A DNA stretch of 64,000 nt from Apostichopus japonicus (taxonomy: Eukaryota > Echinodermata > Holothuroidea > Aspidochirotida > Stichopodidae): NCBI RefSeq assembly GCF_037975245.1, contig NC_092566.1, positions 17,579,001 to 17,643,000 on the forward strand, written 5' to 3'. Below the pieces are notes generated by a model. That model saw only the letters and a program-made list of their open reading frames with translations, was not told the DNA's origin and did no database searches. The position numbers were made by a program, and so were the translations under genes. Shown here piece by piece: positions 1 through 64,000 of the stretch (within the stretch, counting starts at the first letter, position 1; the number at the start of each line of letters is the position of its first letter).

Positions 1-637
1 AAAACAAAATTCGTTACGCATCAATTTTGTAAAATCGGATTAGATCCGATGGCAACTCTCTCTAATTAGGAATCATCCACAGATTAATACTAGACATCTG
101 TATTATATATAGAATGCATTTAGGTCTGTCAAATTATCTGCGAAGCTTTTACTTTGTTTTACATCAGGTGTAGTAGGGAGCTACTTCCCGTCAGAAAATA
201 CGCAAATATCCGTTTATCAGAAAATACAGAAAAAAAGTGAAGTCTTGCATAACATATTGAAACCTTTCCCCCAGGATACAACAGTTAAGTAAAGGAAACA
301 GTTTTGTGTCTGTCAGTACCGTCGGAAATGAAACCATCACTTCCATGTCGACATATATACCTTCATAATAATATAGATTTAGTTGGTTCCGAATAGTATG
401 TTGCCACATCTCCATCTCGTGCAGTCGGAATAAATGTAAGGTACTGGTCAGGAGAAATCTCTGGGAGATGTACAGTATATCTCACGAGTGGCTGTACAAA
501 TTCCCATTCGTTTAAATTGGAACTGGTGTAAATCTAGCCCCCCCCCAAAAAAAACCATAAATCCGTGTTTTCTTTCTACAATTTGCTGATTGAATTGCTA
601 CAATTTGTGTGTGTGTGTGTGTGTACTTGTTTGATAT
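1..637. other. Non-coding flank with GT microsatellite
   Basis: No convincing gene is seen. A short GT dinucleotide repeat lies at about 606-624, and a C run followed by an A run at about 538-556. The stretch lies downstream of the minus-strand ORF 638-1378, so it may hold that gene's 3' region, but no clear polyadenylation signal was identified. Confidence 0.5.
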
Positions 638-1378
638 TTACATAAGAAGGTCATCTTTAGCTTCCGAGGTAGACCTATCTGAATCGTCCGCTCCCGAGTT
701 AAAATTGTCCACCCCTAAGAAGACGTCCTGCTGATCCGTTCTCTCTGGCGAAGAATTCGCTATGATCTCATTTCGGTTGGGATCATCCGTGGGGGGCTCC
801 ACAGAACTACCCGTTGAATTGCCACTGTCCGTCCGGAGTTTTTTCTTTCGTGTACGACGAATATTGTTCCGTAATCTTTCCGTATTTGGGAGTGGTAAAC
901 CTTTACCATAGGCCTCGATATCACTCATTCTTGTCGGCACCGAAGTTGGTTTTATTTTTCGTGGTTGTTTGCTCTCCTTATGCAAACTTGGACCTAATGT
1001 TACAATCCTGTCCACATAATTATTAGTTGTGTCACTCTTGGTTCTTTGCAACGGGTCAGCCGCTTGCTCCACTTGGTCGGAAAGCCTAAAATCGTTCAAG
1101 GATTTATTCTCCCTTATTTGTAAGGTATCGCCCTGATTTTGCCACTGGGGTAAACTATGACTTTGCGACCTACCTTTCAGTTGCCGCTTTAACCCTTCGT
1201 TTTCCTCTCGTAACTTATCGTTTTCCTCTCGTATATTTCCGGGTACATGACCTTGTTCAAGTTCGGCGATTTTCGCTATTAATTTAGCATTTTCGGCTCG
1301 CAAGTCGGTTTCTGTTTCGTTTCCAATAGATCCGTTGGAGAGTTCCCCTCGTCTTCGAGAGGATGGACGGCTCCCCAT
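638..1378 (-). CDS. Unrecognised 246-aa coiled-coil / disordered protein
   Basis: This is an open frame of 246 codons on the minus strand with ATG at 1378 and TAA at 638-640. I do not recognise the family. The N-terminus (about 1-20) is Ser/Arg-rich. Residues about 25-70 have heptad-like leucines among many Glu, Lys and Asn residues (repeated 'EEN.KL' patterns), typical of a short coiled coil. The remainder is polar and low in hydrophobics, with a basic cluster (RRTRKKKLR, about residue 175) and an acidic, Ser-rich C-terminus ending DDLLM. There is no signal peptide or membrane segment. Its length and non-repetitive composition in an AT-rich region favour a real coding exon. It may be a single-exon gene or the last exon of a larger one. 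A TATATAA lies about 40 bp upstream on the minus strand, which is too close to be a persuasive promoter. Confidence 0.5.
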   Translation of the reverse strand: MGSRPSSRRRGELSNGSIGNETETDLRAENAKLIAKIAELEQGHVPGNIREENDKLREENEGLKRQLKGRSQSHSLPQWQNQGDTLQIRENKSLNDFRLSDQVEQAADPLQRTKSDTTNNYVDRIVTLGPSLHKESKQPRKIKPTSVPTRMSDIEAYGKGLPLPNTERLRNNIRRTRKKKLRTDSGNSTGSSVEPPTDDPNRNEIIANSSPERTDQQDVFLGVDNFNSGADDSDRSTSEAKDDLLM

Positions 1379-4300
1379 TTCCCGAGATATTTCTCTTACT
1401 CACTCCTTCTGGATTATATAAATGGCTTCCGGTTTAACAAGCTTGGTTGAATTTGTATGGTAATTGTTAATACCGTCACTCTGGTAACGAAATATCCCAG
1501 GACCTGGTACCTTCATTTAGCTGAAAAATAAGATAACGTTGATATAAGGTCAGTTATTTCTTTAAATGATGATCATGGCTATAGCTATGTAGTTCGCTTG
1601 TCTCTATACTATACGAAGAAAGTGCTGTTAATCGGTTATATAGTTGCTTTGTAAGTGTGTCTGCATATATATGTGCACGGAGCTCCGCAGGGGGGGGGGG
1701 GGGGGGAGAACGTATATGGAAAAGGCAAACTTCATAGTTAAGCTAACATGCCTATTAAGGACTTAGCATTTAAAAAACTATAGGAAACTCGTCAAAAAAA
1801 ACCCATGTCAAATAAACATGTCTACGTCTCATTAAAAATTCATCAACTGCAAGTGCATTGCGTTGGGAAGTCATGCAGTATATGTATAATTACAAAAAAG
1901 AAAATAGTTTGAGAGAGAATTCTTTTTTTTTTTATAAAACCAAGGATTATGGTACCATTAGCAACCAGATCCGGAATGTTTTTCAAATTGTGTAAATTAA
2001 AGATTCAAATATTATATATATTTTAAGGTAATATCTCTAAAAACGCAATGGCAATTATAATTTTAGGAAAATAATGCTATCGCCGTCACACTTGTATATT
2101 CTTTGATGGGTTAATGGACAAACTACATTGTATTGTAACGAATGATTTACTTAACCATGGTTCACTTTAAGCAAGGGTTACAATGCAATCTATACAAAGG
2201 ACAATTCAATCATTTACATCGGAAGCCAGCTGGTTATGCGATATTAGTTTAATCTTTCATGATTTACTTCAAGTTTGTCCAGTAACAAGTCACTAGAAAC
2301 TATATGAAGTCACACGTCACAATTGAGTATGCGAAGAACAAGTCAACCATTGTTTTACATCAAGCAAGGGATATATAACGCACTAAACAAAGCAAAGCAA
2401 AGTCAACCATTCACTTCAAGTAGTTGCAGGATATAAACGCAATGTAAAGAATTATTCATACATGCTTCACTTCAATCAAGAGATTATAATTAATAATTCT
2501 TGGCTTTAATAACGTATATAGGTAATCTAAATGTTTTTTGTTCGTATATGAACCTGTTTCATTTAATACACTACGGTGCCATGGCAACATGAATGCGTAG
2601 ATCTTTAAGCACGTTTAATCTCTTTCATACAAGTACATGCATGGCTTCTCTTTTCTGATGTTGTTTTCCTTCATCAGGTTCGCGCGCGTGACTCCCCGTA
2701 GGGTATTTTCACTGGTATTGTCACCTTTGAGCTGTAATTAAGTAACTTACATAGGTTCAGTCGTTTGTGATGTTGTTTACGAAAGGACTCACATGGTTGC
2801 ATAATGGATTACCCTGCTGCACCTTCATTTCATATGCAAAACAAAGTGTATTCCACATGTACTCATTTTCGATGCAGGTTCAATTTATGAAAACAAAGTA
2901 TCTTTTCTACATGTAGTCATCTTCGCATACAAGAGTGTTTTTTCAGGGAAACCGTTCCCCTCAAAAGAGTCTTAATGACGGCGTAACTTTTATACATAAT
3001 TAACTTGAAATATCATAATAAAAAGAAAATTTTAAATCCACAGTTTCTCACCTATCTGTCAATATCGAAGTTTTAATGCAGATTATCCCTCGAAATAGGC
3101 CTAAATTTCGCTATTAACTTTATGATATTCAATTTTCAAAAATGTGAAAGCCTACTGGTTATGTATAGGCAGGCCTGAAGAGAGAAAGATGGTTGGGGTA
3201 GTCAGAGGTTGTACAGCCCCACGACCCGGGATCTAATTACATGGAGCCAGGCGTATGTGTAAGGATGCATCAAGTCAGGTCTTCCGACCACCAGCATCAT
3301 TCTTTAAAAAGATACTATGAATTTATATGGAGGCCTCGAATAATGCACTTTAAACAGCATTTCGTCTATGATTCTAGCCATTTCTCAAAACTTCGTACAC
3401 AAAATAAAGATGAAATCATTCAAGTGTATCACACTATTACCTGAAGAAACCGTCCTACTAGAATTCTTTTTTTATTTACGAAATTTCAACTAGTGACTAA
3501 TTAATGTTTCCTTTCGATTCTTAAAATATTATCGCCTGACGTCACAACTGCAGCAATACAGTGGTCTGAGTTTTCCCTTGCGACAAAATATGAACACGAT
3601 GACTTTTGAAAAAAACATTTGTCTTTGCAAAAATTAATTCATAATACTTGCAAAGAGATTTCATGTTCGTTTTGATGAATAATGAAAATCCTCCAGAATG
3701 CCTCAAATCTAAAAACTATACTACCCAAAACCTTAATAAATCGCTACACAATCGCTTATAAATTGAATTCTAAGAGCGCAAAGTACAGTTAGCATTAATA
3801 TCTCAAGTGCTGGGGCCAAACAACGACACACAATAAGAGAGAATTCCTTTTACCATCCTCCCGATCGTTAAATAGCTTATAGAGTCATTAATAATTTTGC
3901 CGGATAAAACAGCAGGTAGTTCTATCACAAGATGTAATTCAAAACATCCTCAAAATGAATCTCAACAGTTGTGACTCGAGGGAGAAGAACGTGGCAGACA
4001 CCGTGAAGAATTTTTATGAGAAATAACGTTATGTTTTTAAAGACAACAAATTATCATAATATAATGGATTATTCTTACCCATAAAAATTTCCAGAATGAT
4101 AAATGATACAAATTTTAAACCAATCGAATACTCACCGAGCGATGGCCATATTCATCTTCAGAAGACGGAATAATAAGGATGTAACACGTAAAACGAAGAC
4201 ATAGATACACATACATACATGCACACGGATGAAGCCAGAAAGAACGACTACTCCTATAGTGAAAACAGATGGTCGTACACACGAAGCCCGATCTCATTTA

Positions 4301-5430
4301 ATTATGTATAGCCATGAGAGATTGACAATTCTGCTTATGACGTGCGAGCGATTCAAAACATCACCCCCTTACAGTCAAAGGAGACTAGGGAATTGAAAAG
4401 AAGACGAAGGAGAAAAAGGAAAAGAGAAAAAGAGAGAGACAAAGAAAAAAAGGGTTTAGATATAATGTTAATATTGTTTGATTATCATCAACTTCATGGG
4501 TTGTGTTTTGATGAATTGACTCTGTTTTCTTTGTATCTATCGCATTGTGATGATTTTTTATTACATTTTTGCTTCGAGAAAAGTAGGTTAGCAAATGCTT
4601 TCAAGCTGAATGAGGACAAATATTATGGTTTGAAATTTGATAAAGGAATGCGGCATTAAAGGCAAATTACTTAGAACTGAGAAAGGGACAAATGAGGGAC
4701 ATCTTTTAAATCAAATAGTACCCGGATGTTGAAGTATAATATTGGAAGTATATTGGAAGTATATGGATTCCTTCTATCCATTGAAGGATTCGGTTGTATA
4801 CCATTCCGAGTAATACGTCAAAACTTTAGTGGCAACAAGTCGATTGGGAAATAAAAATATACTTCCCTGATCATGCTGTTTCTTTCAAATCGTAATCGCC
4901 TCAATTTTTGGTTTCATGTTTAGAGTTTTTTCCATCTTTTGTGATATACGAAATAAAACCTAACCACTCGTCAAAACATTGCAAGTCTCTTAACAGGCTA
5001 TACAGTTTATGTTAAAGATTCATTTGTCTCTACCAATCTGTCTTCAAGCTGGGCTCTCATTACCGGCTTTTAATAAATAAGTAATATCGGGGGATATATT
5101 TTCGTATTGGCTTATACCATTTCGCCAACGAGATTGTGACATAAATATACAGATTTACATCATGTCCTTTACTCTGCATTTTTGTTCTAGAAAATGAATT
5201 ACGGCACCATTTTATAATTTATGCTTAGCAACATATCAATCTTAATTTTATCATAAAAAATTCCGAGTATTGTAATATATATTACCAGAAAGTATTCCCA
5301 CGCCAACAACAATATACCTTTAACTATTGTTGCAGCTAGACAAAGCTTTTAAGCTAATAGCTTCGACTATATCAGATAATTTATATACGAATATATATAT
5401 ATATATTCACTATCGGTCACTTTCGGTGAT
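1379..5430. other. Intergenic stretch without a recognisable gene
   Basis: I see no coding region with family resemblance. A 17-base G run sits at 1690-1706. Around 2150-2470 there are loosely repeated phrases (variants of 'caaccattgttttacatcaa'), possibly an old tandem repeat. Short ORFs at 3241-3444 and 4342-4659 have low-complexity or random composition; the second is driven by a purine-rich tract at about 4380-4455. Confidence 0.4.
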
Positions 5431-5432
5431 CA

Positions 5433-5471
5433 TGCACTGAAGAAGAGCTAGTTTTGCTCGAAAGCTCTGCA
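5433..5471 (+). ncRNA. Hammerhead-ribozyme-like motif (possible Penelope-element end)
   Basis: The order of elements matches a type I hammerhead: stem I strand TGCA (5433-5436), core CTGAAGAA (5437-5444), stem II GAGC..GCTC (5445-5459), GAAA (5460-5463), then GCTC. The last A of GAAA plus GCU forms the self-complementary AGCU expected of a palindromic stem III, C5467 sits at the cleavage position, and TGCA at 5468-5471 can pair back as stem I. The core has one extra A compared with the canonical CUGANGA. The same arrangement with different stem sequences occurs in the Penelope-like element at 46010-46048 (minus), so this may be the remnant of a related element. No element ORF is seen nearby. 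Confidence 0.5.
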
Positions 5472-5590
5472 AAAACTAAACATTGGCTGTTTTATTTCCG
5501 ATCACTTATCCTAATTTAATTATTGTATCTCACTCGAGATCAAGCCTTTCTGTATATGCAGCATAGTTGTTTAACAGTTTTCCGTTATTC

Positions 5591-8799
<3,209 letters not shown>

Positions 8800-8957
8800 A
8801 CCGGGATTCGAGCCCGGGCCTCCCGCTTTATACGCGGAGACCCTAACCACAAGGTTATGGACGCTGATTATATGTCCAGAAGTTTGAAACCGGTAATGAA
8901 GGTCGTAATTCCACTGTAGGCGTTTTTCACCTGTATCGAACAATGCTAGTTCTGTTT
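8800..8957 (-). mobile_element. tRNA-derived SINE with dispersed repeat body
   Basis: Read on the minus strand, about 8880 to 8806 gives a tRNA-like head: a box-A-like GTGGTTAGGGTCTCCGCG and a well-formed T arm (CCGGG, loop CTCGAAT, CCCGG) that includes box B GGCTCGAATCCC. The acceptor stem does not close well, so I call a SINE head, not a functional tRNA. The adjacent 8880-8957 is a second copy of the repeat at 5616-5695. Confidence 0.6.
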
Positions 8958-9231
8958 TTGGTGACATATTTGCCTTACTCAAGAGATCAAATATGATACT
9001 AACCAACTCGAAGAGACGAAATCGGCGATTTTCATAATTGTGGTAGATCTAACAAGGGTTTCAGTTGAATTAAAAACCCATAAAATCGAATCTAGTTACG
9101 TGCTTAAAGAAAAGTTATTTAATGAACAGTTATATAGTTGCATTTAAAAAGGATAAAGAACATATGGGGAAGAGTTCGTAGTCAAGTTCTTATAATTTGC
9201 ATAACAATTTTTCTGATTTTCGTTCCAGATG

Positions 9232-20667: not shown

Positions 20668-21456
20668 GTATTGATATTTCCTTGTATTATATTAAATTTA
20701 ATCATATTTGAATACTGAAATATGAACTAGGGTAGTTGCCGTTCCTTGATTTGTTTAAGAGTACAGTGACAGCTTGGTAAATTTTAATAAGATCTCGTAT
20801 AATGATAAACATTGAGAAACTATATTTTGGATCGGGAAAGTGGGCTACCTTAAAAATTGTGAGAGACATGACCGGGGTTCCAATTCACTGTAGGTCCGGA
20901 TGATAAATGCGTCATTGTTCCTATATATTAATGGAATTCTCATAAAAATCTACTTTAAAAAAAGCCCGCAAAAACAACTCGTACCGTTTTTAGTCATGTT
21001 ACCGTGCACTCATAAATTATTTGCTAGGTCTTATCATCATAAAAAATAGAATCCTGATGGTGTTGCAATGTTTTCTTAGCTTATAGATATATAGTAAATA
21101 AATAAAGAATAACACACCAGAAAACTTCCTCTTCACAACCGGTTTCGTCCTTTTGGGACTCATAAGGCGAAGGTAGGAATCGAACCCGTGGTACACATCT
21201 GTCATACCACTTGCTACACATTCATTTCTTATTGACCTCTCCCGTCACTTACAGTAAATACAATGAGCCGTGAAATTTGCTAGATTTGTCCTTTTATTAT
21301 TGTTTATCTATCCGTAACTTATTCTTCTTCTTCTTTTTTTTTTGGGGGGGGGGGGGGGGGGGTAAACATGATAGGTGGCAAAGGCGTTCATCCGTAGACA
21401 AGTCATATATTTAGTTGGGTATGATATAAGGGACTTATTTGAACATGAAGACTGGG
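20668..21456. other. Spacer between broken paralog and CLCA-A
   Basis: Holds a tRNA-like SINE with a hammerhead-like motif (about 21060-21235, minus) and a 19-base G run at 21344-21362. No coding sequence is seen. Confidence 0.6.
21060..21235 (-). mobile_element. tRNA-like SINE carrying a degenerate hammerhead motif (A copy)
   Basis: Read on the minus strand: a tRNA-like head with box A-like TAGCAAGTGGTATGAC and box B GGGTTCGATTCC, then a hammerhead-like stretch (about 21166-21142) with stem II GTCC..GGAC and GAAAC, and a T/A-rich tail (ATTT repeats). Here the core is CTTATGAG, one base off the canonical CTGATGAG. The orthologous copy in the second unit (near 40020-40100) keeps CTGATGAG. Confidence 0.55.
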
Positions 21457-24500: not shown

Positions 24501-27500
24501 TCCCTGTTTAGGTAATAAATAGTATCCACCCCAACCTCCCTCCCGCACAACAAGGGGGTTTGAATATTACATGTTACAAGAGCCTGCAAAACTTAATGAT
24601 ATACGTGAATATAAAGAATTTCCATTATGTTATAATGAATAGCGCTAACTGCAAAGTAATTTTTTCTTTAAACGTCTCTTCATGTTGCCTATAGCGATTT
24701 AGCGCCAGGATTATATTTTGTATAATATCCATGAACGGTAAACGCGTTAACTGTTTAAATAGATGTAGTTTCTTTCCCTTTAATTGTACTTCCAACAAGA
24801 ACTTTGCACTGATCATAGATTTCGTCTTTTGAAAGAGTTTTATAAGGCATTAAAGGAGTCTGAGTACGTTGCCATAAAATGTTGTTCGTATTTGTAATCA
24901 TCTGTTATTAATGATTTTTACTTTTTTCCTATATCAGGGAGGGTACTCGTCCACGAATGGGGCCATTACAGATGGGGTTTGTTCAACGAATATCCAGACC
25001 CCATCGGAGATCCAGAACATTACAGGCAGTTATATTTTTCGGTAGAAGAAGGAAAATGTCTCCTATCCGTGTAAGTACACGAAATTCGTAAGGTGAACGT
25101 GTTTCTAGAAGGGGTATGGGAAGTATGGGGGAGGTGATCGAAGGTACACTATGTATACCGTCAAAATAATGTCAACCATTTCATTTCACCTGACACAGAA
25201 GTAAAAATCGAAAAGCAATTGTAAACACACTGTGTTCTCTAGTTATTATAAAGGTTTATACAACAACTAATTATATTCCGGCCATTTGATTGGTCAATTG
25301 CTCGTCGATTGCATGCAAAATCCGCTCTATTGCACTCTATGAAATAGAACCATGTGTTATACTTTTTTGACAGCACTTTTTTTCAATGGTAAGAGAGCAG
25401 AGAAACCTGTCTGTTCAATACAATCTGTTGCATGAGTGCATTTTATATCCAAATTTGGAGTTGTTGTATAAAACAAATAATGAATGGTTTCCATTCGTGC
25501 AATAGTGCGAATATTTCATTCGTTGAAAGATATAATTTGTTTCATTCAACTCGGCTGCGCCTCGTTCAATGGAACATTCCATCTTTCAACTCATGAAATA
25601 TTTGCACTATTGCACTCATAACCATTTATTATTTGTATAATATCATATTTTGTGTAAATCTCATATGTCCTGGACCGAGTGATACAGAGCTGCAAACTGG
25701 ATACAATGTGGCATTAAGTCTAGTAAGTTCATCAACATGTTTACATGCCAATCCTTAAATTCCGTATGTACTTCTGTAATTGGATTCAGAGTTGTGAGGA
25801 TTTAAAAAAAAGTGTGGGGAAAGGAGGGAGAGGGGGGGGGTAAATAAATCCCCGACTAACTGATCCTTTATGGGAGGTCCAGAGGCAGATCAAGGTTTAA
25901 TAAAGCAGGGCACATGGCTATGAGTTCGTTAAAGCCGGTGTTCCATGTAGAGGCTCTAGCTTTATGAATAGGTCAAAACGCATGGTTGTGCGAGAAAATT
26001 ATTTTGAATATTTTTGTGAGGTTGAAACAGAAGGTGGGTTTACACCCCAAGATCCGCACATTAGGGCGTCCCGGGCCGGCGGGAAAGTTCGATTTATTTA
26101 AGAAAATAAACTGACGGTGTAGGTATAGGCGCAGGACTACCTCTCGTGCCTTACCAATCCTTGGCGCACGCCACCGATTGTACTATTTTTGTGCACGAGC
26201 CATTTAAAGATTTTGTAAGTTGAGACTATCTATAATCGGGAAGACTAATCGATACCGACATTCTTTTCTCATTTTTATTTGAATTAGTTGTACACGAGGC
26301 TGGAACATCACCTCTGTAACTTACAACGATGATGGAACATATGTTCCCAATACTGATGTGCCATCAATATCAGACCTTTTTACCTGTAAAAATTTGAATT
26401 TTATACCAAACAACATGCAAAGTACAACTGCTAGTATAATGTCCGGCTATACAAATTTTCCAACGGTAAGTTAATATAAACGGGACAAGACAAATATGAT
26501 CTTATAGATATGGAAATACCATTACAAACAAATAAGTACTATTATTTAAGATCTGATCAACATCATTCTATCTAATCGCTCCCTTAGGTAAAATGGGAAT
26601 GTCAAGTTCTGTCAAGGTCGTAACTGAGGTCAATGGTCAAAGGTATATTTTGTTGTGTCAAAATTCCTCCTAAACGGCTGTTCCGATTTTCTTTAAACGT
26701 GGTAGGAAGTTACCCCATAAACGGAACTCGCAGACTCGCAGAACAATAGGTCAGACGTCAAGGATCAATTATGCACAAAAACATGATTATTTAGTATTAT
26801 TTGTGTTTGGTGGCTGTAGCTTGAAGTGAAGTATCAAGTTATACCAAAATATGTGGTTGCAACGGTAACAAACATGAACGGTCAAAGTTCAGAGGTCAAA
26901 ATTAGTAAGTAGAGACATTTTGCTATAACTCTAAAGGGAATCATCGAATTGACTTGCAACCTCCACAGGTATAATGAATGGTTATGTCAAGCGCTATCAT
27001 ATTTTGTGGTTAACATGGGTGTTAATTTAAAAAAAAAGTATATAGCGCATGAATTTTTCATTACTGTGAATTTGCGACGAGATATGCAGCCCCATGGATT
27101 GTCCTCTTGTTATTTTGATAAGTAATGCTACATAACGATACTACTGTAGATATCACCTTTAAGCAACGGTTTCCCATGTTTACAAAGGTATTTCTGCTTT
27201 TTTTAAGGTGAGGAAATTTTGCGACGATTTGGAAACCACCGACCCAAGCTTAGAACACAACCCAGAAGCTCCGAATAAACACAATAGACTATGCAATCAA
27301 CGAAGCTGCTGGTCAATAATGAGAGATCATCCTGATTTTAAAGGTCAATGTTCTCAACTACCCAATGCAACGACGGAAAAGATGAAGACAATTATGATGC
27401 CAATGAGTTTTACGTTAACAAAAATCTCGACGATAACGATGACACATTATTTTGATTATCCAAATTAAGTTTACAACAAGATGACAATAACGATAAAAAT

Positions 27501-33500: not shown

Positions 33501-35707
33501 CCCCATCACTGTTAGGAGGCGATACGAAAGATAGCGTTTTTCTTCTGGTCTGTCCGCAAAAGACAGAACTGTAGTTGCCAATGAACTCAAATCAAACGTC
33601 TTCGCGTTTCAGTTTATAATTATTTTAATGAATATGCATTATTTTCTCAGGAGCTGATGTAACGAAAAATGATGGCATTTACTCTCGCTATTTCACGAAC
33701 TTACTGGTGTTGGATTTTATGGCATCAAATTGGCCTTTTTCAATGAAATTGGTTCAGCAATTATACTGAGGCCTGCTGAACTTCCATTTTCTCGTGTACC
33801 AGCTTATGTTGATCCACAAGAACTTTTGAAAGGAAACATTCCAATCATTGGTGAGTTTGGAAAATCACATACAAACTGACCTTCTGATCAGATCTCGAAT
33901 TGTGTAAAAGTAAGTTGGCCTGACATTTCGATCCTAGCAGGATCTTCTTCAAAGGCTAAAATCGGATCAAAGGCTAAAATCAGATCTCGAATTAACCGAC
34001 GACATTGAAAGCGAAGTGTCGCCGTTTCTTATATGCCACTTGCGTAATGCCTTTGTTGCCCACATTGTTAAAATCATCCTTTTAAACCAAGTTGACTGTT
34101 AACCACTTTTCTTCATAATTTGCACATTTCGTGGCATTACACTGCAGCCATACTGAGTTTAAATATTTTGTTTCAAAAATCCTGCAGTTTTCCTAAATTA
34201 GGTTCGGCAAACTCTAACATACAAAATGTCCTCAAATATACATTCATGATATGATTGCGTAAACTCCTCAACTTATGATTTATTGCTCTTTTTCATCTCA
34301 ATCCAATTTTATATATTCAAAAATGAAGTGTTACTATCTAGTTGACAATATGGTTCCAAGAGATGACCTCTGCAATGTTTCAAGCAAAGTATTAAATTGG
34401 AAAAAAATACTATGACATTAAAATGCCTGTGAAGGTAATTACCATTACCTGTATGAGTAGTCGTTCTCCATGACATGTGGCATATCGAGATATATACCCC
34501 AGTTAGTTCTTATATGCTAAATTCTGTTCAGATGGTACTATCTTGCCCTTACCTGGTATTCCTGTTCCTGAACCTGACAGTGCACCAGCACCGAGTTTTT
34601 CAAGAGGCATATCCGGGGGTTCCAGTCGAGTCCCCGAAATACCGGAGAATTGGAGCCCTGGTGATGACGTTTTCCCTCCAAATGCTATACTTGACTTGAT
34701 AGTGACATCGTCGTCTTATGAAAATGAAACAGCAACATTGCAATTTACAGCTCCTGGAGACGATTTGGATAGCGGATACGGTAAATATGCCAGCTGTCAC
34801 TTTTATTGGAATATTGACTACTTATATAACATAATTAGGATATATTGTCTCCAGTTTAATAAAGTTTCAAAAGTCGCTAATCATATTTAGGTGAATCAAG
34901 AATTCCGAATTTCAAAATTCCTTTTACTCTTGTAGCCAATAAGAAAAAGGTATCAAGCAAGATGCGCCATTCTATTCTTTCTTAACACGGCTTCTTTTTC
35001 AAATATCTAAGCTTTTAAAGTTCGTAAACACGGGTGAGGTTTGGAATGGAAAAAAACTCTACCTGCTTTCTACTAGAGATCAAACTGTTTCATCCTATTC
35101 AACAGCTTCGTTTTACGTCATTCGGGTAGCTGAGTCTAGCAATCACTTCAAAAACAACGGGACCTCCATCCTCCCACTGAACACTACTGATATTATTCAA
35201 GGAAACATTTTGTCACCAAAACTGTCTGGGGAGCGTGAAGTTTTCGTTGTAAGGATTTCGATTCCAGCAAAAGGAACCATGTTCTCTTATCATTTCGCAA
35301 TACATGCCGTGGATAACTTTGGTAACCAAGGAGATATTTCCAACATAGCCTCAGTAACTATTGATGTACCTATCCCTCTTACGTCACCTGCTCCTGTAAC
35401 TACTGAATTGCCATCAACAACAACAACAGCAACAGTAGCAGCAACAACAGCAGAACCTACTGAAATATCGTCGACATTGCAGGAAACGACAGCAGGAGAT
35501 GAACCGGCCGTCACAATAGGATTGGTAGGAATAATCACTGGAATAACGTTCATATTGGTGATCGTTGTTTGTGGTTTCTTTTGCCTGATCTATGTTGTGG
35601 CAAAGAGAAGAGCTAAAGCAATAGGACACGGGCAAGGGGATGACCACGAGAGAGGGTACGCTGATCCACACACGGTCAAGAATAAAGTCTTCGCAATTAA
35701 AAATTAA
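21575..35707 (+). CDS. CLCA: CLCA-A: calcium-activated chloride channel regulator-like, 15 exons, frameshift in exon 13
   Basis: Exons: 21575-21754, 22445-22754, 24938-25070, 26288-26465, 27208-27343, 27837-27946, 28301-28528, 28819-29005, 29853-29959, 30697-30823, 31819-31934, 32543-32837, 33651-33850, 34532-34780, 35106-35707. All have GT..AG borders and compatible phases. Exon 1 encodes a signal peptide. Exon 3 holds HEWGH (residues 169-173). Exons 6-8 form the VWA domain with DTSGS (343-347), the Thr of GSTCIG and the Asp of VTDGKDG, a complete MIDAS. Exons 9-13 give the beta-rich part, exon 14 the PGDD..FPP linker, and exon 15 the last beta domain, a short Thr-rich stalk, a membrane helix and a basic tail. 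CLCA proteins are secreted or membrane-anchored self-cleaving regulators of the TMEM16A chloride channel. Against CLCA-B, exon 13 lacks one T near 33701, shifting the frame to TGA at 33767-33769 and predicting 741 residues without the anchor. Either a real truncation or a sequence error. Confidence 0.88.
25257..25640. mobile_element. MITE/foldback insertion in CLCA-A intron 3
   Basis: About 380 bp present in the A unit and absent from the matching intron of B. Two inverted features are visible: tatacaacaact (25257-25268) against agttgttgtata (25459-25470), and a larger foldback in which 'aaataatgaatgg..gtgcaatagtgcgaatatttcat' (from about 25476) is mirrored by 'atgaaatatttgcactattgcac..ccatttattattt' (to about 25638). 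No ORF. A non-autonomous DNA element is likely. Confidence 0.6.
27511..27596. repeat. (GAT/GAC)n microsatellite in CLCA-A intron 5
   Basis: A GAT/GAC trinucleotide tract with interruptions, just downstream of exon 5. The same locus in the B unit (about 48212-48383) is about twice as long with regular GATGAC repeats. The Ser-, Val- and Met-Thr-rich frames through it are artefacts. Confidence 0.85.
33902..33980 (-). mobile_element. 79-bp Penelope-like element end with 13-bp target duplication
   Basis: In CLCA-A intron 13 the direct repeat cagatctcgaatt (33889-33901 and 33981-33993) brackets a 79-bp insert that is absent from CLCA-B. The insert matches the terminal repeat of the Penelope-like element at 45934-47305, including 'agtaagttggcctgac' and the hairpin 'gatcctagcaggatc'. 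Its ribozyme-like core is mutated (TTGAAGAA and GAAAT). It is a severely truncated insertion made after the segmental duplication. Confidence 0.8.
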
Positions 35708-39579: not shown

Positions 39580-40679
39580 GTATTGATATTTCCTTGTATT
39601 ATATTAAATATAATCATATTTGAATACTGAAATATGAACTAGGGTAGTTGCCGTTCTTTGATTTGTTTAAGAGTACAGTGACGGCTGGGTAAATTTAACA
39701 AGATCTCGTATGACGAAAAACATTGTGAAACTATATTTTGGATCGGGAAAGAAGGCTATACCTTTAAAATTGTGAGAGACATGACCGGGGTTCCAATTAA
39801 CTCTCGGTACCGATGATAAATGCCGTCGTTGCACCTATATATATATTAAGTAATACCCATAAAAATAAAAATCGCAAAACACAACACGTACCGCTTTCAA
39901 TTATGTTACCGTGCACTCATAAATTATTTGCTTGCTCTGATCATCATAAAAATAGAATCATGAAAGTGTTTCAATGTTTTCTTAGCTTCAAGATATATAG
40001 TATTTGATAAAGAATAACACACCAGAAAAACCGACCGGTTTCGTCCATTTGGGACTCATCAGGCGAGGGATCGAACCCGTGGTAAACATTATACCACTTG
40101 CAACATATTCATTTCTTATTTACGGCTTTGCTTGCCAATAACGAGTGGATATTCTGTGTATATTGTCAGATTCAAATCACCAGGGGTGTACTCTGTACAA
40201 TCATAACACTTGGGTAATACGCTTTCAATAACAGTTATACAAAGCCAAGTTATACGCATTCACACACCAGTAGAATCACTGTGGTCGAGTGGTACGGACT
40301 TCGGTCTGTGTTTTTTTGGTATAGGACAAACATGGGTGATTAAATAAGGCACTGTTGCCCCCAGTACCTATCCACATCACCCTTATGAAGCTTTTTTGTT
40401 TCATCTATTTTAATAAGGACCACGTTGTGAACAAAATGTGCAACGTGAAGAATTTCAAAGCTTTTTCAGACAAGAATGATGCTCGTCACTGACAGTCAAT
40501 AAAGTAAGCTTTGAAATTTGCTAGATGTTTTCTTTTTTCATTGTTTATCTATCCGTCACCTATTTTTGGGGGTAAACATGGTAGATGGCAAAGGTGTTCA
40601 TCCGTAGACAAGTCATATATATAATTGGGTCTGATATAAGGAACTTACCGTTACGGTTTATTGGTACATGAAGACGGGG
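39580..40679. other. Spacer upstream of CLCA-B
   Basis: Homologous to 20668-21456 of unit A, including the hammerhead-bearing SINE. A unit-B-only stretch at about 40120-40500 includes a tRNA-like piece 'tggtcgagtggtacggact' at about 40284-40310 without a clear box B. No gene is seen. Confidence 0.5.
40010..40110 (-). mobile_element. tRNA-like SINE with intact hammerhead core (B copy)
   Basis: Minus strand: box B GGGTTCGATCCC, then the hammerhead core CTGATGAG (40062-40055), stem II GTCC..GGAC, and GAAAC (40042-40038) followed by CGGTC. ACCGGU is self-complementary, as in hammerheads whose stem III forms between two copies, and GUC would be the cleavage triplet. Stem I pairing is weak: only the first base pair is evident. 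The A-unit copy has CTTATGAG and is probably dead. Confidence 0.55.
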
Positions 40680-40799: not shown

Positions 40800-61074
<20,275 letters not shown>

Positions 61075-62200: not shown

Positions 62201-63176
62201 ATACGTTGAGACAGAGCCATTGATTTCAATTTTTCATTGTATTCTGTAATTACGGTTAGTTTATTTCTACTTGTAAATACAACAGACGAAAATGTATTCG
62301 GGTACTTTACACAAATGTACTTTAGGGCTCGATATGTGATCGTCCCGAAGGGGCGTATACTATCTCTCTATACCATTTTCTTCTGTTTTTTATCTTTCTT
62401 TCTCTGTGCACTGATACATATCCAAGCCCGTAACCAGGCCAAGGGACGAAGGGCTTGCCCTCTTCACAGTACAGACTATTTACAGTACTGACTACTACCC
62501 CCCCCCCTCCATCCCATGGGTGCCAGTATTATATGTACGAAAACTGTAGCACATGACACAAGGGGTGCGTCTCTCCTTTAAATTGTTGGTGCCCCTCCAT
62601 AAATACTGGTGTCCCTCCATCTTAGAATTCCTGGTTATGGGCCTATGCTTACCTTCTTACATTTAATACAATAGTTTCCATTGTTCGTATATTTATGTAG
62701 TCAGATTAGTTTATTTTACTTTTATCAAATTATGAATAACATTACCAAGTGTAAAGCGACCGGCTCTGTGCGTTTTTATTGTTTATTTATGTTGATGGTT
62801 CAAACAAAAACAAGACCAGAGGTTGACTGGGGCATAACTTGCTACTTGGTCATGTGATCAAACTTGTCATGTGATTAACCATTAGGAGCCTTGCCTTGCA
62901 CGGCTCGATCATGAGGTTTCATTCTGACCATGGATCCAACAGGTGATTCTCGGTGTCTCGAAACAAGCAGCGCATTTGACATCTCGGACCAAGCGGCACA
63001 ACGATTATGAGCCGGTATATCAGTAGGACAATATCTCTTTGGTAAAGGCATTGTCTAAAATAGCAACCAAGTTGAATATTTGATCAGGTAATTATGTGAA
63101 GAATGGTGAGACTGTTTTCTTTATTAGATTTGTATTCTAGTGATTTATGGACTTATGGAAGAATATCGTTTGTGTT
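62201..63176. other. End of unit B and unique flank
   Basis: Similarity to unit A ends at about 62869. 62870-63176 is unique in this window and shows no gene. A C run lies at about 62499-62508. Confidence 0.5.
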
Positions 63177-64000
63177 GTATTTATGTAGACATGCTTGTCA
63201 CAATAACGACTGCATGTCGTATTGCTTGGTATACTAGACACAGGAATGAATCTTAGTTTAGGTATCCTAACATGGTATTTATGTAGACATGCTTGTCACG
63301 CTATAGACTACATGTTGTATTGATTGGTTTAGACACAGGATGGAATCTTAGTTTAGGTATCCTAACATGGTATTTATGTAGACATGCTTGTCACGCTATA
63401 GACTACATGTTGTATTGATTGGTTTAGACACAGGATGGAATCTTAGTTTAGGTATCCTAACATGGTATTTATATAGACATGCTTGTCACGCTATAGACTA
63501 CATGTTGTATTGATTGGTGTAGACACAGGAATGAATCTTAGTTTAGGTATCCTAACATGATATTTATGCAGACATGCTTGTCACGCTATAGACTACGTGT
63601 TGTATTGATTGGTTTAGACACAGGATGGAATCTTAGTTTAGGTATCCTAACATGGTATTTATGTAGACATGCTTGTCACGCTATAGACTGCATGTTGTAT
63701 TGATTGGTGTAGACACAGGAATGAATCTTAGTTTAGGTATCCTAACATGATATTTATGCAGACATGCTTGTCACGCTATAGACTACATGTTGTATTGATT
63801 GGTTTAGACACAGGATGGAATCTTAGTTTAGGTATCCTAACATGGTATTTATGCAGACATGCTTGTCACGCTATAGACTACATGTTGTATTGATTGGTTT
63901 AGACACAGGATGGAATCTTAGTTTAGGTATCCTAACATGGTATTTATGTAGACATGCTTGTCACGCTATAGACTACATGTTGTATTGATTGGTTTAGACA
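63177..64000. repeat. 95-bp satellite array, running off the window
   Basis: After one diverged unit, regular 95-bp monomers start at 63271, 63366, 63461, 63556, 63651, 63746, 63841 and 63936 (phase taken at 'catggtattt'). Each contains 'tagacatgcttgtcac', 'gttgtattgattgg' and 'tcttagtttaggtatcctaa'. Units differ by a few marker bases, and a two-unit pattern (63461-63650) recurs at 63651-63840. The array continues past the window edge. Confidence 0.95.

Follow-up and report, generated by a model that had tools for sequence, protein, structure and literature searches.

Hammerhead ribozymes of Penelope-like elements (PLEs) are reportedly the subject of work by Cervera and de la Pena from 2014 and by Lunse, Weinberg and Breaker from 2017. 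In the excerpts available of the papers cited here and below, such hammerheads are described as minimal type I variants (PMC6155905, PMC7761336, PMC7229834) and as dimers formed by two copies within a tandem RNA (PMC7761336, PMC6466107), and a review calls their role a mystery (PMC7761336). The hammerhead of an Anolis PLE, according to the excerpted text, cleaves with the help of protein (PMC11167929).

The window, that is the whole stretch of 64,000 nucleotides of Apostichopus japonicus DNA analysed here, contains two motifs of 39 nt each which, judged from their sequence, are very probably minimal type I hammerheads, one for each of two divergent PLE families of one genome, and lie in the 3' (pseudo-LTR) region of these elements. 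This reading builds on the architecture of the motifs, on covariation and on the PLE context, and for family 1 also on an insertion with a target-site duplication, all of which can be read directly from the DNA. A preliminary description of the window had placed two hammerhead-like motifs at 5433-5471 (+) and 46010-46048 (-), and both were confirmed at these sites (Table 1). The 5433 motif reads TGCA-CTGAAGAA-GAGC(tagtttt)GCTC-GAA-AGCT-C-TGCA and the motif at 46 kb, from 46048 to 46010, GCCT-CTGAAGAA-GATCC(tgcca)GGATC-GAA-ACGT-C-AGGC. They share the order of a stem I strand (4 nt), CTGAAGA plus an extra A, a 15-nt stem II hairpin, GAA, a palindrome, C and the stem I partner (4 nt), and in both the palindrome is 4 nt long with A first and T last. 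The type I order CUGANGA...GAA with A15.1-U16.1 and H17 is present in both copies, bar the one A inserted before stem II. The pairing of the stems listed earlier holds, but GATCCTG/CAGGATC cannot form a stem of 7 bp because its loop would keep only 1 nt; the actual stem II has 5-6 bp and a loop of 5-3 nt.

Table 1. Positions of the PLE-derived features in the window.
Feature	Position	Strand	Remarks
Truncated family-2 PLE 3' region copy, GGTCACTTTCGG...TTATTC	5415..5590	+	TA-rich microsatellite on both sides
Family-2 PLE hammerhead motif (putative)	5433..5471	+	Motif definitions, covariance model, covariation
5433 motif, stem I	5433-5436/5468-5471	+	
5433 motif, core CTGAAGA and extra A	5437-5444	+	
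5433 motif, stem II hairpin	5445-5459	+	
5433 motif, GAA; palindromic AGCT (stem III); C17	5460-5462; 5463-5466; 5467	+	
5433 motif, predicted cleavage	after 5467	+	
77-bp truncated PLE insertion, scarcely more than the motif	33902..33978	-	Absent from paralogue B (58873-58887, single-copy site)
Target-site duplication ATCAGATCTCGAATT, 15 bp	33887..33901		Second copy 33979-33993
Third family-1 motif copy	33918..33956	-	Core C3 changed to T
Whole family-1 PLE insertion, paralogue B	45934..47305	-	Insertion-free site in paralogue A near 26611-26618
Target-site duplication AAGGTTTATTTGT, 13 bp, left copy	45921..45933		
Target-site duplication AAGGTTTATTTGT, 13 bp, right copy	47306..47318		
3' extension (tail) past the pseudo-LTR	45934..45992	-	
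3' pseudo-LTR, family-1 PLE	45993..46113	-	84% identity to 47184-47293; ends at TTACTTTTACACA
Family-1 PLE hammerhead motif (putative), core intact	46010..46048	-	Predicted cleavage between 46014 (C17) and 46013
Open frame, C-terminal part of PLE protein with GIY-YIG endonuclease	46377..47216	-	
5' pseudo-LTR remnant (partial tandem)	47184..47293	-	
Second family-1 motif copy, in 5' pseudo-LTR	47201..47239	-	Core destroyed: GTTTAGA for CTGAAGA

Six motif definitions were run as a chance control on both strands of 376 Mb simulated by a first-order Markov process from the window's composition. Five of them gave no match; four of these five recover both motifs in the window, and the one that admits no extra nucleotide recovers neither. 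The loosest definition gave 7 simulated matches, equivalent to 0.0012 per 64 kb, as compared to 3 in the window. The unpaired pattern CTGANGA..GAAA occurs 5 times in the window versus 4.3 times expected, which is not significant, and since this bare pattern is found at chance level the signal sits in the paired stems. A covariance model built from three sequences (the copies at 46 kb and 34 kb and one from an Epulopiscium contig, L126), with 5433 left out, scored the 5433 motif over all 39 positions at 20.5 bits (E = 4e-4, rough calibration). As a control only, viral contigs were scanned for the pattern CTGAAGAAG..CGAAACGT, which yielded at least 120 stretches; 100 of these loci scored at best 18.7 bits where the pre-selected letters stand and 15.9 bits at other sites, so that the margin of 5433 is small over pre-selected letters and larger over unselected sequence. 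The structure scan of 120 of the viral loci (1.07 Mb) gave a single match, with a looped stem III and no four-base palindrome. The viral stretches were rejected as true motifs: among the 120 obtained, none has stem I and stem II both of at least 3 bp, and they thus look like chance matches. The specific pattern of the 46-kb type had 0 matches in viral contigs, and a PDB sequence search returned a single unrelated chain (E 0.9). The Rfam hammerhead models gave no match at E<=10 to 5433 or 46010, be it in the whole window or in 101-nt stretches, and none in two of the contigs described below (L127 and L131). In L126 the Rfam model HH9 reached 16.7 bits (E 8.5) against a gathering score of 52, and the top Rfam match on the 46-kb motif was a CRISPR repeat model (18.0 bits, E 0.19, gathering score 37). 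An Rfam score is a criterion of detection and no test of mechanism.

From the two motifs of the window it had been argued that compensating changes in the helices point to a conserved RNA fold and not to shared descent of a fixed sequence. The compensating changes are borne out; the exclusion of shared descent is not, as the set consisted of two sequences and covariation is compatible with shared descent of the fold. We aligned five 39-mers (those at 46 kb, 34 kb and 5433 and those of L126 and L127), leaving out the 47-kb copy and that of L131. In this set, which is small and in which the 34-kb and 46-kb rows are close relatives, 98.2% of the cells are paired and 7 of the 11 pairs are changed on both sides (8 of 12 if the core pair 5-10, C3-G8, is added), and none of 500 shuffles reaches it on any of five measures. 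The palindrome variants ACGT, ATGT, AGCT, ACGT and AATT are all self-complementary if G-U is allowed. Because the 39-mer is identical in 18 of the 20 best-scoring family-2 loci, the covariation lies between families. The core of L127, TTGATAA, was considered as a product of decay, and this was dropped: it carries the core pair U3-A8 in place of C3-G8, and this same replacement is reported for natural hammerheads (PMC3088659).

The extra A recurs in each of the 7 motif sequences compared, even in the damaged 47-kb copy. Its presence, like the hammerhead-type fold, the link to PLEs and the compensating helix changes, held when set against independent loci. The suggestion that it defines a new variant is weakened, since the (+) hammerhead of chrysanthemum chlorotic mottle viroid has a documented A10 between A9 and G10.1, the same place as here; in that case, where the carrier is a viroid, the accessible part of the report states that A10 lowers the trans-cleaving rate moderately (PMC3705267). 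No description of an extra A in PLE hammerheads was found in the literature searched, as far as the excerpts of it extend and with the detailed original papers on PLE hammerheads lying outside its coverage.

The window contains two tandem paralogues, A at about 19-37 kb and B at 38-62 kb, which allow the insertions of family 1 to be read against sites without them. At the site of the 46-kb element paralogue A is 17 nt shorter than a simple empty site predicts, so that a small later deletion in A (or a gain in B) must be assumed. The pseudo-LTRs of the element, 110 and 121 nt long and 84% identical, stand in a direct or partial-tandem arrangement, and the 3' one, which a 3' UTR separates from the open frame, ends 21 nt past the predicted cleavage site. 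The open frame matches PF01541 at 20.7 bits (E 5e-4; Pfam cut-off 22.6), and its product is 31% identical to the protein of L127 over 238 aa (E 8e-38). A telomerase-like reverse transcriptase was looked for and no RVT match was found in the element; the similarity of its protein to that of L126 begins at residue 527, past the reverse transcriptase domain at 315-448. The 46-kb copy is internally deleted and its reverse transcriptase domain is missing. The two further copies of the family-1 motif, 33918-33956 (-) and 47201-47239 (-), had been overlooked in the preliminary description, and with them two of the three copies in the window have a damaged core (those at 34 kb and 47 kb). In the animal's own genome (671,581,487 bases in 35 contigs) exact matches to the 31-nt core of the 46-kb motif number 11, against 0 for its reversed control.

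The paralogues show other features as well. At 21114-21184 (-) in A and about 40000-40063 (-) in B, the same ancestral place, lies a second hammerhead-like sequence, of canonical type, with the core CTTATGA.. in A and CTGATGAGTCCCAAATGGACGAAA in B; its Rfam scores are below threshold both for HH9 (30.2 bits, gathering 52) and for type I (22.1 bits, gathering 34). By its sequence and position it would be retrozyme-like and predate the gene duplication. A long simple repeat coding for threonine and alanine occupies 60245-61000 in the last large frame of paralogue B, the corresponding frame of A being far shorter there, and the window has three tandem-repeat arrays (TTTACC-rich, 72-bp and 95-bp units), at 56316-56913, 57775-58332 and 63140-64000.

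The 5433 motif had been taken for an orphan, which is wrong: the genome search shows it to be one copy of a genomic repeat, and two loci (L153 and L155) assign this repeat to the 3' region of PLE family 2. A query of 136 bases from the 5433 region gave 780 first-look candidates in the own genome, and the 40 of these that were scored gave 42 matches, namely 5433 itself and 41 others at 91-97% identity; the final two are partial and adjoin another match on contig 19. The best 20 loci were fetched with flanks of 1.5 kb and, having been chosen as best-scoring, understate the variation. The two loci whose 39-mer is not identical to the others differ by one core change, A9 to G (L148), and by a loop two bases longer (L156). 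The family-2 unit spans GGTCACTTTCGG to about TTATTCC, or about 175-195 bp. By simple count TA repeats follow it in 17 of the 20 loci (in L151 and L152 they come after a second GTTATTCC, and in L148 they are absent), and the sequence directly upstream is TA-rich in 14 of the 20. In L153 and L155, two of the 20, the unit is preceded by a PLE GIY-YIG frame whose matched pieces share 37-43% identity with the PLE protein of the window and which in L155 has its stop codon 195 nt before the motif; L153 also has partial tandem copies of the unit. Since these two loci join the same sequence to GIY-YIG frames, the repeat is the PLE's own 3' region, and the 5433 copy, which has no frame, is best read from its sequence as a 3' end, truncated on the 5' side, of a second and divergent PLE family. 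A search around 5433 for direct repeats of 8-14 nt found none; the TA microsatellite flanks could mask them.

Many of the fetched family-2 copies begin at nearly one base (5415 in the window), beside the TA microsatellite, and the first bases, GGTCAC-TTTCG-GTGATC, by eye allow a hairpin of 6 bp just 5' of the hammerhead. Further downstream, at 8793-8864 (-), is a tRNA-like sequence (Rfam tRNA 38.8 bits, gathering score 29) in a window in which ARAGORN finds no tRNA; it may belong to a tRNA-derived repeat, because the adjoining 8869-8958 repeats 5604-5695 next to the 5433 motif.

Where do the insertions end relative to the predicted cut? The 34-kb insertion ends in ...TTACTTT(T/A)ACAC(A), 20-21 nt past it, and so does the 46-kb element at its internal junction. 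Eight of the 11 exact places of the 46-kb type were fetched, one of which is the window's own. In L138 and L139, close copies on one contig with identical similarity coordinates and an end set by similarity loss alone, similarity is lost at element position 1332, near 45999 and about 15 nt downstream of the predicted cut, which is about six bases earlier than the ends at the 34-kb and 46-kb junctions. In L134, L135, L137, L140 and L141 similarity extends to element positions 1392-1407, close to the far end at 45934. Excerpts of two papers describe PLE pseudo-LTRs that may carry a tail (PMC3846280) and reverse transcription that begins internally (PMC11167929), and the family-1 ends match both. 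As the insertions end 3' of the predicted cut, the RNA template was presumably whole at the motif; to judge from these ends, reverse transcription in the 34-kb, 46-kb and L138/L139 events seems to have begun downstream of a motif that had not been cut. Reverse transcription from an uncut motif would make cutting at that copy dispensable for insertion, and this agrees with the Anolis PLE, for which the consulted excerpt of PMC11167929 reports that hammerhead mutants left insertion unaffected.

PLE loci outside the window's genome were sought with the protein-motif pattern C..C..QY[VIM]G[EQ]T, run as DNA on prokaryote genome records, which returned 12 contigs. In nine of them there are PLE-like frames, with matches to the protein of the window at E 1.3e-16 or better, and the remaining three (L124, L132, L133) are taken as unrelated. 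The nine frames presumably stem from hosts behind the prokaryote records. The endonuclease is C-terminal in L126, L131 and the fragment L127 and lies near the N-terminus in L122, L123, L125, L128, L129 and L130. Pfam detects a reverse transcriptase at E<=0.01 in L123, L125, L126, L130 and L131, above the cut-off in L131 alone, and neither a reverse transcriptase nor a GIY-YIG domain in L122 and L129. The structure scan finds the motif in L126 and, more loosely, in L131. The covariance model, of which L126 is itself a building sequence, finds it in L127 (E = 2e-5) and gives L131 8.5 bits (E 5.9), with a stem I of 3 bp including a wobble; in the six contigs with N-terminal endonuclease it gives nothing better than E 2.8. 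The motif is thus found in three of three contigs with C-terminal endonuclease (two solid, one weak) versus none of six with N-terminal endonuclease, some of which may lack the relevant flank. Protein and pattern searches for PLE relatives in viral contigs, plasmids and phages found none; the sole pattern match there (L121) was rejected since its frames look like phage. Two observations concern the prokaryote records themselves. The Epulopiscium contig contains two tandem PLE frames of 765 aa, L126:228-2522 (-) and a frame of the same length about 5.4 kb off, with the hammerhead between them, and the six contigs with N-terminal GIY-YIG are large PLE-like frames in prokaryote genomes or MAGs, probably through eukaryotic contamination of species-representative genomes.

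How, then, would such a motif act? As the palindrome cannot fold back on itself, stem III needs a second copy, and it would form by pairing with the same palindrome of that copy, in a tandem transcript or a dimer. The paired dimer would cut 3' of the C which follows the palindrome, the PLE protein may help cleavage, and cleavage would separate the units of a tandem transcript. We infer RNA cutting, the action of a dimer and/or the PLE protein, and the unit-separating role from the motifs and from the systems described; by analogy, help from the PLE protein is plausible for the motifs found here. Nearest-neighbour energies, which do not include tertiary contacts of the core, amount for the 46-kb motif to -19.5 for the double hammerhead, -23.0 for two separate monomers and -34.4 for the extended duplex, so that the dimer is not energetically favoured over monomers or duplex. 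In predicted folds with flanks the 46-kb motif keeps stems I and II, 5433 and L131 fold otherwise, and the core of L126 is invaded by extra pairs; an extension of stem I past an internal loop is predicted for 46-kb, L126 and L131 and none for 5433. These models support the reading as minimal type I hammerheads aided by a dimer or by protein only partly. Tentatively, and with more doubt than confidence, we suggest that PLEs with C-terminal GIY-YIG keep a hammerhead with A10 and a zero-loop palindromic stem III which may be deliberately slow and activated only in tandem RNA or by the PLE protein, and that PLEs with N-terminal endonuclease do without.

Could one or both motifs merely resemble a hammerhead by chance? 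The frequency of the unpaired pattern is as expected, neither motif is recognised by Rfam, and the score of 5433 is to be seen beside the 18.7 bits reached by pre-selected viral sequences. Such a coincidence would nevertheless have to produce what five of six definitions did not produce once in the simulated sequence, and to do so within repeat families, beside PLE frames and with the same architecture at independent loci; we consider it hardly credible. More specific is the proposal that sees in the 5433 repeat a non-autonomous, retrozyme-like element equipped with a hammerhead of its own, rather than just a truncated PLE end. Many copies, a short unit, a left end that is nearly constant among the fetched copies and the tandem partial copies in L153 would fit such an element, but the PLE GIY-YIG frames to which L153 and L155 join the repeat argue against a separate retrozyme, which we therefore regard as unlikely. 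A high-copy truncated subfamily of family 2, moved by the PLE, is possible.

The hairpin and its flanks might instead be conserved because the PLE protein uses them, in RNA or DNA, as a landmark near the start of reverse transcription, the motif being a ribozyme no longer or not mainly. The distance of about 20 nt between motif and insertion ends speaks for this, as does the Anolis PLE, which according to the excerpts inserts in vitro without hammerhead cleavage and is cut only with protein (PMC11167929), and the modelled dimer is not the energetic minimum. A landmark, however, leaves unexplained why the catalytic letters are conserved, why C3-G8 is swapped to U3-A8 and why stem III changes (ACGT, AGCT, AATT) and yet stays self-complementary; moreover, the RNA requirement for insertion of the Anolis PLE was mapped to the first 172 nt of its ORF, as stated in the same excerpts (PMC11167929). 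This makes a landmark role very unlikely in our view.

Read as minimal type I hammerheads, the motifs suggest that two divergent PLE families of one genome have in common a small ribozyme architecture that persists while its stems change and one extra A stays constant, and that this architecture is also kept by PLEs of the hosts presumed for two or three of the prokaryote records. If insertion needs no cleavage, the insertion ends sharpen the question of what the hammerhead does for a PLE, and the extra A offers a single-base handle on it. A hammerhead in a PLE is of a published kind; what is new are the two families, the explanation of the supposed orphan as a repeat copy, and an extra A that stays constant throughout the small set compared.

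Like the motifs described here, the known PLE hammerheads, as presented in the excerpts of PMC7761336, PMC6155905 and PMC6466107, have the type I order, a helix III so small or absent that a dimer is needed, and no obvious loop-loop contact, and they lie in PLE pseudo-LTRs in many dispersed copies. Particular to the present motifs are the sequences of two PLE families of this genome and the extra A that precedes stem II in all copies compared. The Poseidon PLE of Anolis carolinensis (PAc) is likewise a GIY-YIG PLE with a hammerhead in the pseudo-LTR region, and its reverse transcription too starts within the RNA at an AC-rich site, with insertion without cleavage; in PAc, however, the hammerhead and the beginning of the reading frame overlap (PMC11167929, in the parts consulted), whereas the copies seen in the present genome are all 3' ones, apart from an element with an internal deletion. 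Metazoan non-LTR retrozymes resemble the motifs of this genome as short, repeated, hammerhead-bearing animal sequences of type I order, but in the excerpted account they have canonical type I hammerheads and tandem units of about 170-400 nt (PMC7229834). The 5433 repeat, by comparison, has a minimal core of the PLE type and in two loci is joined to a PLE frame.
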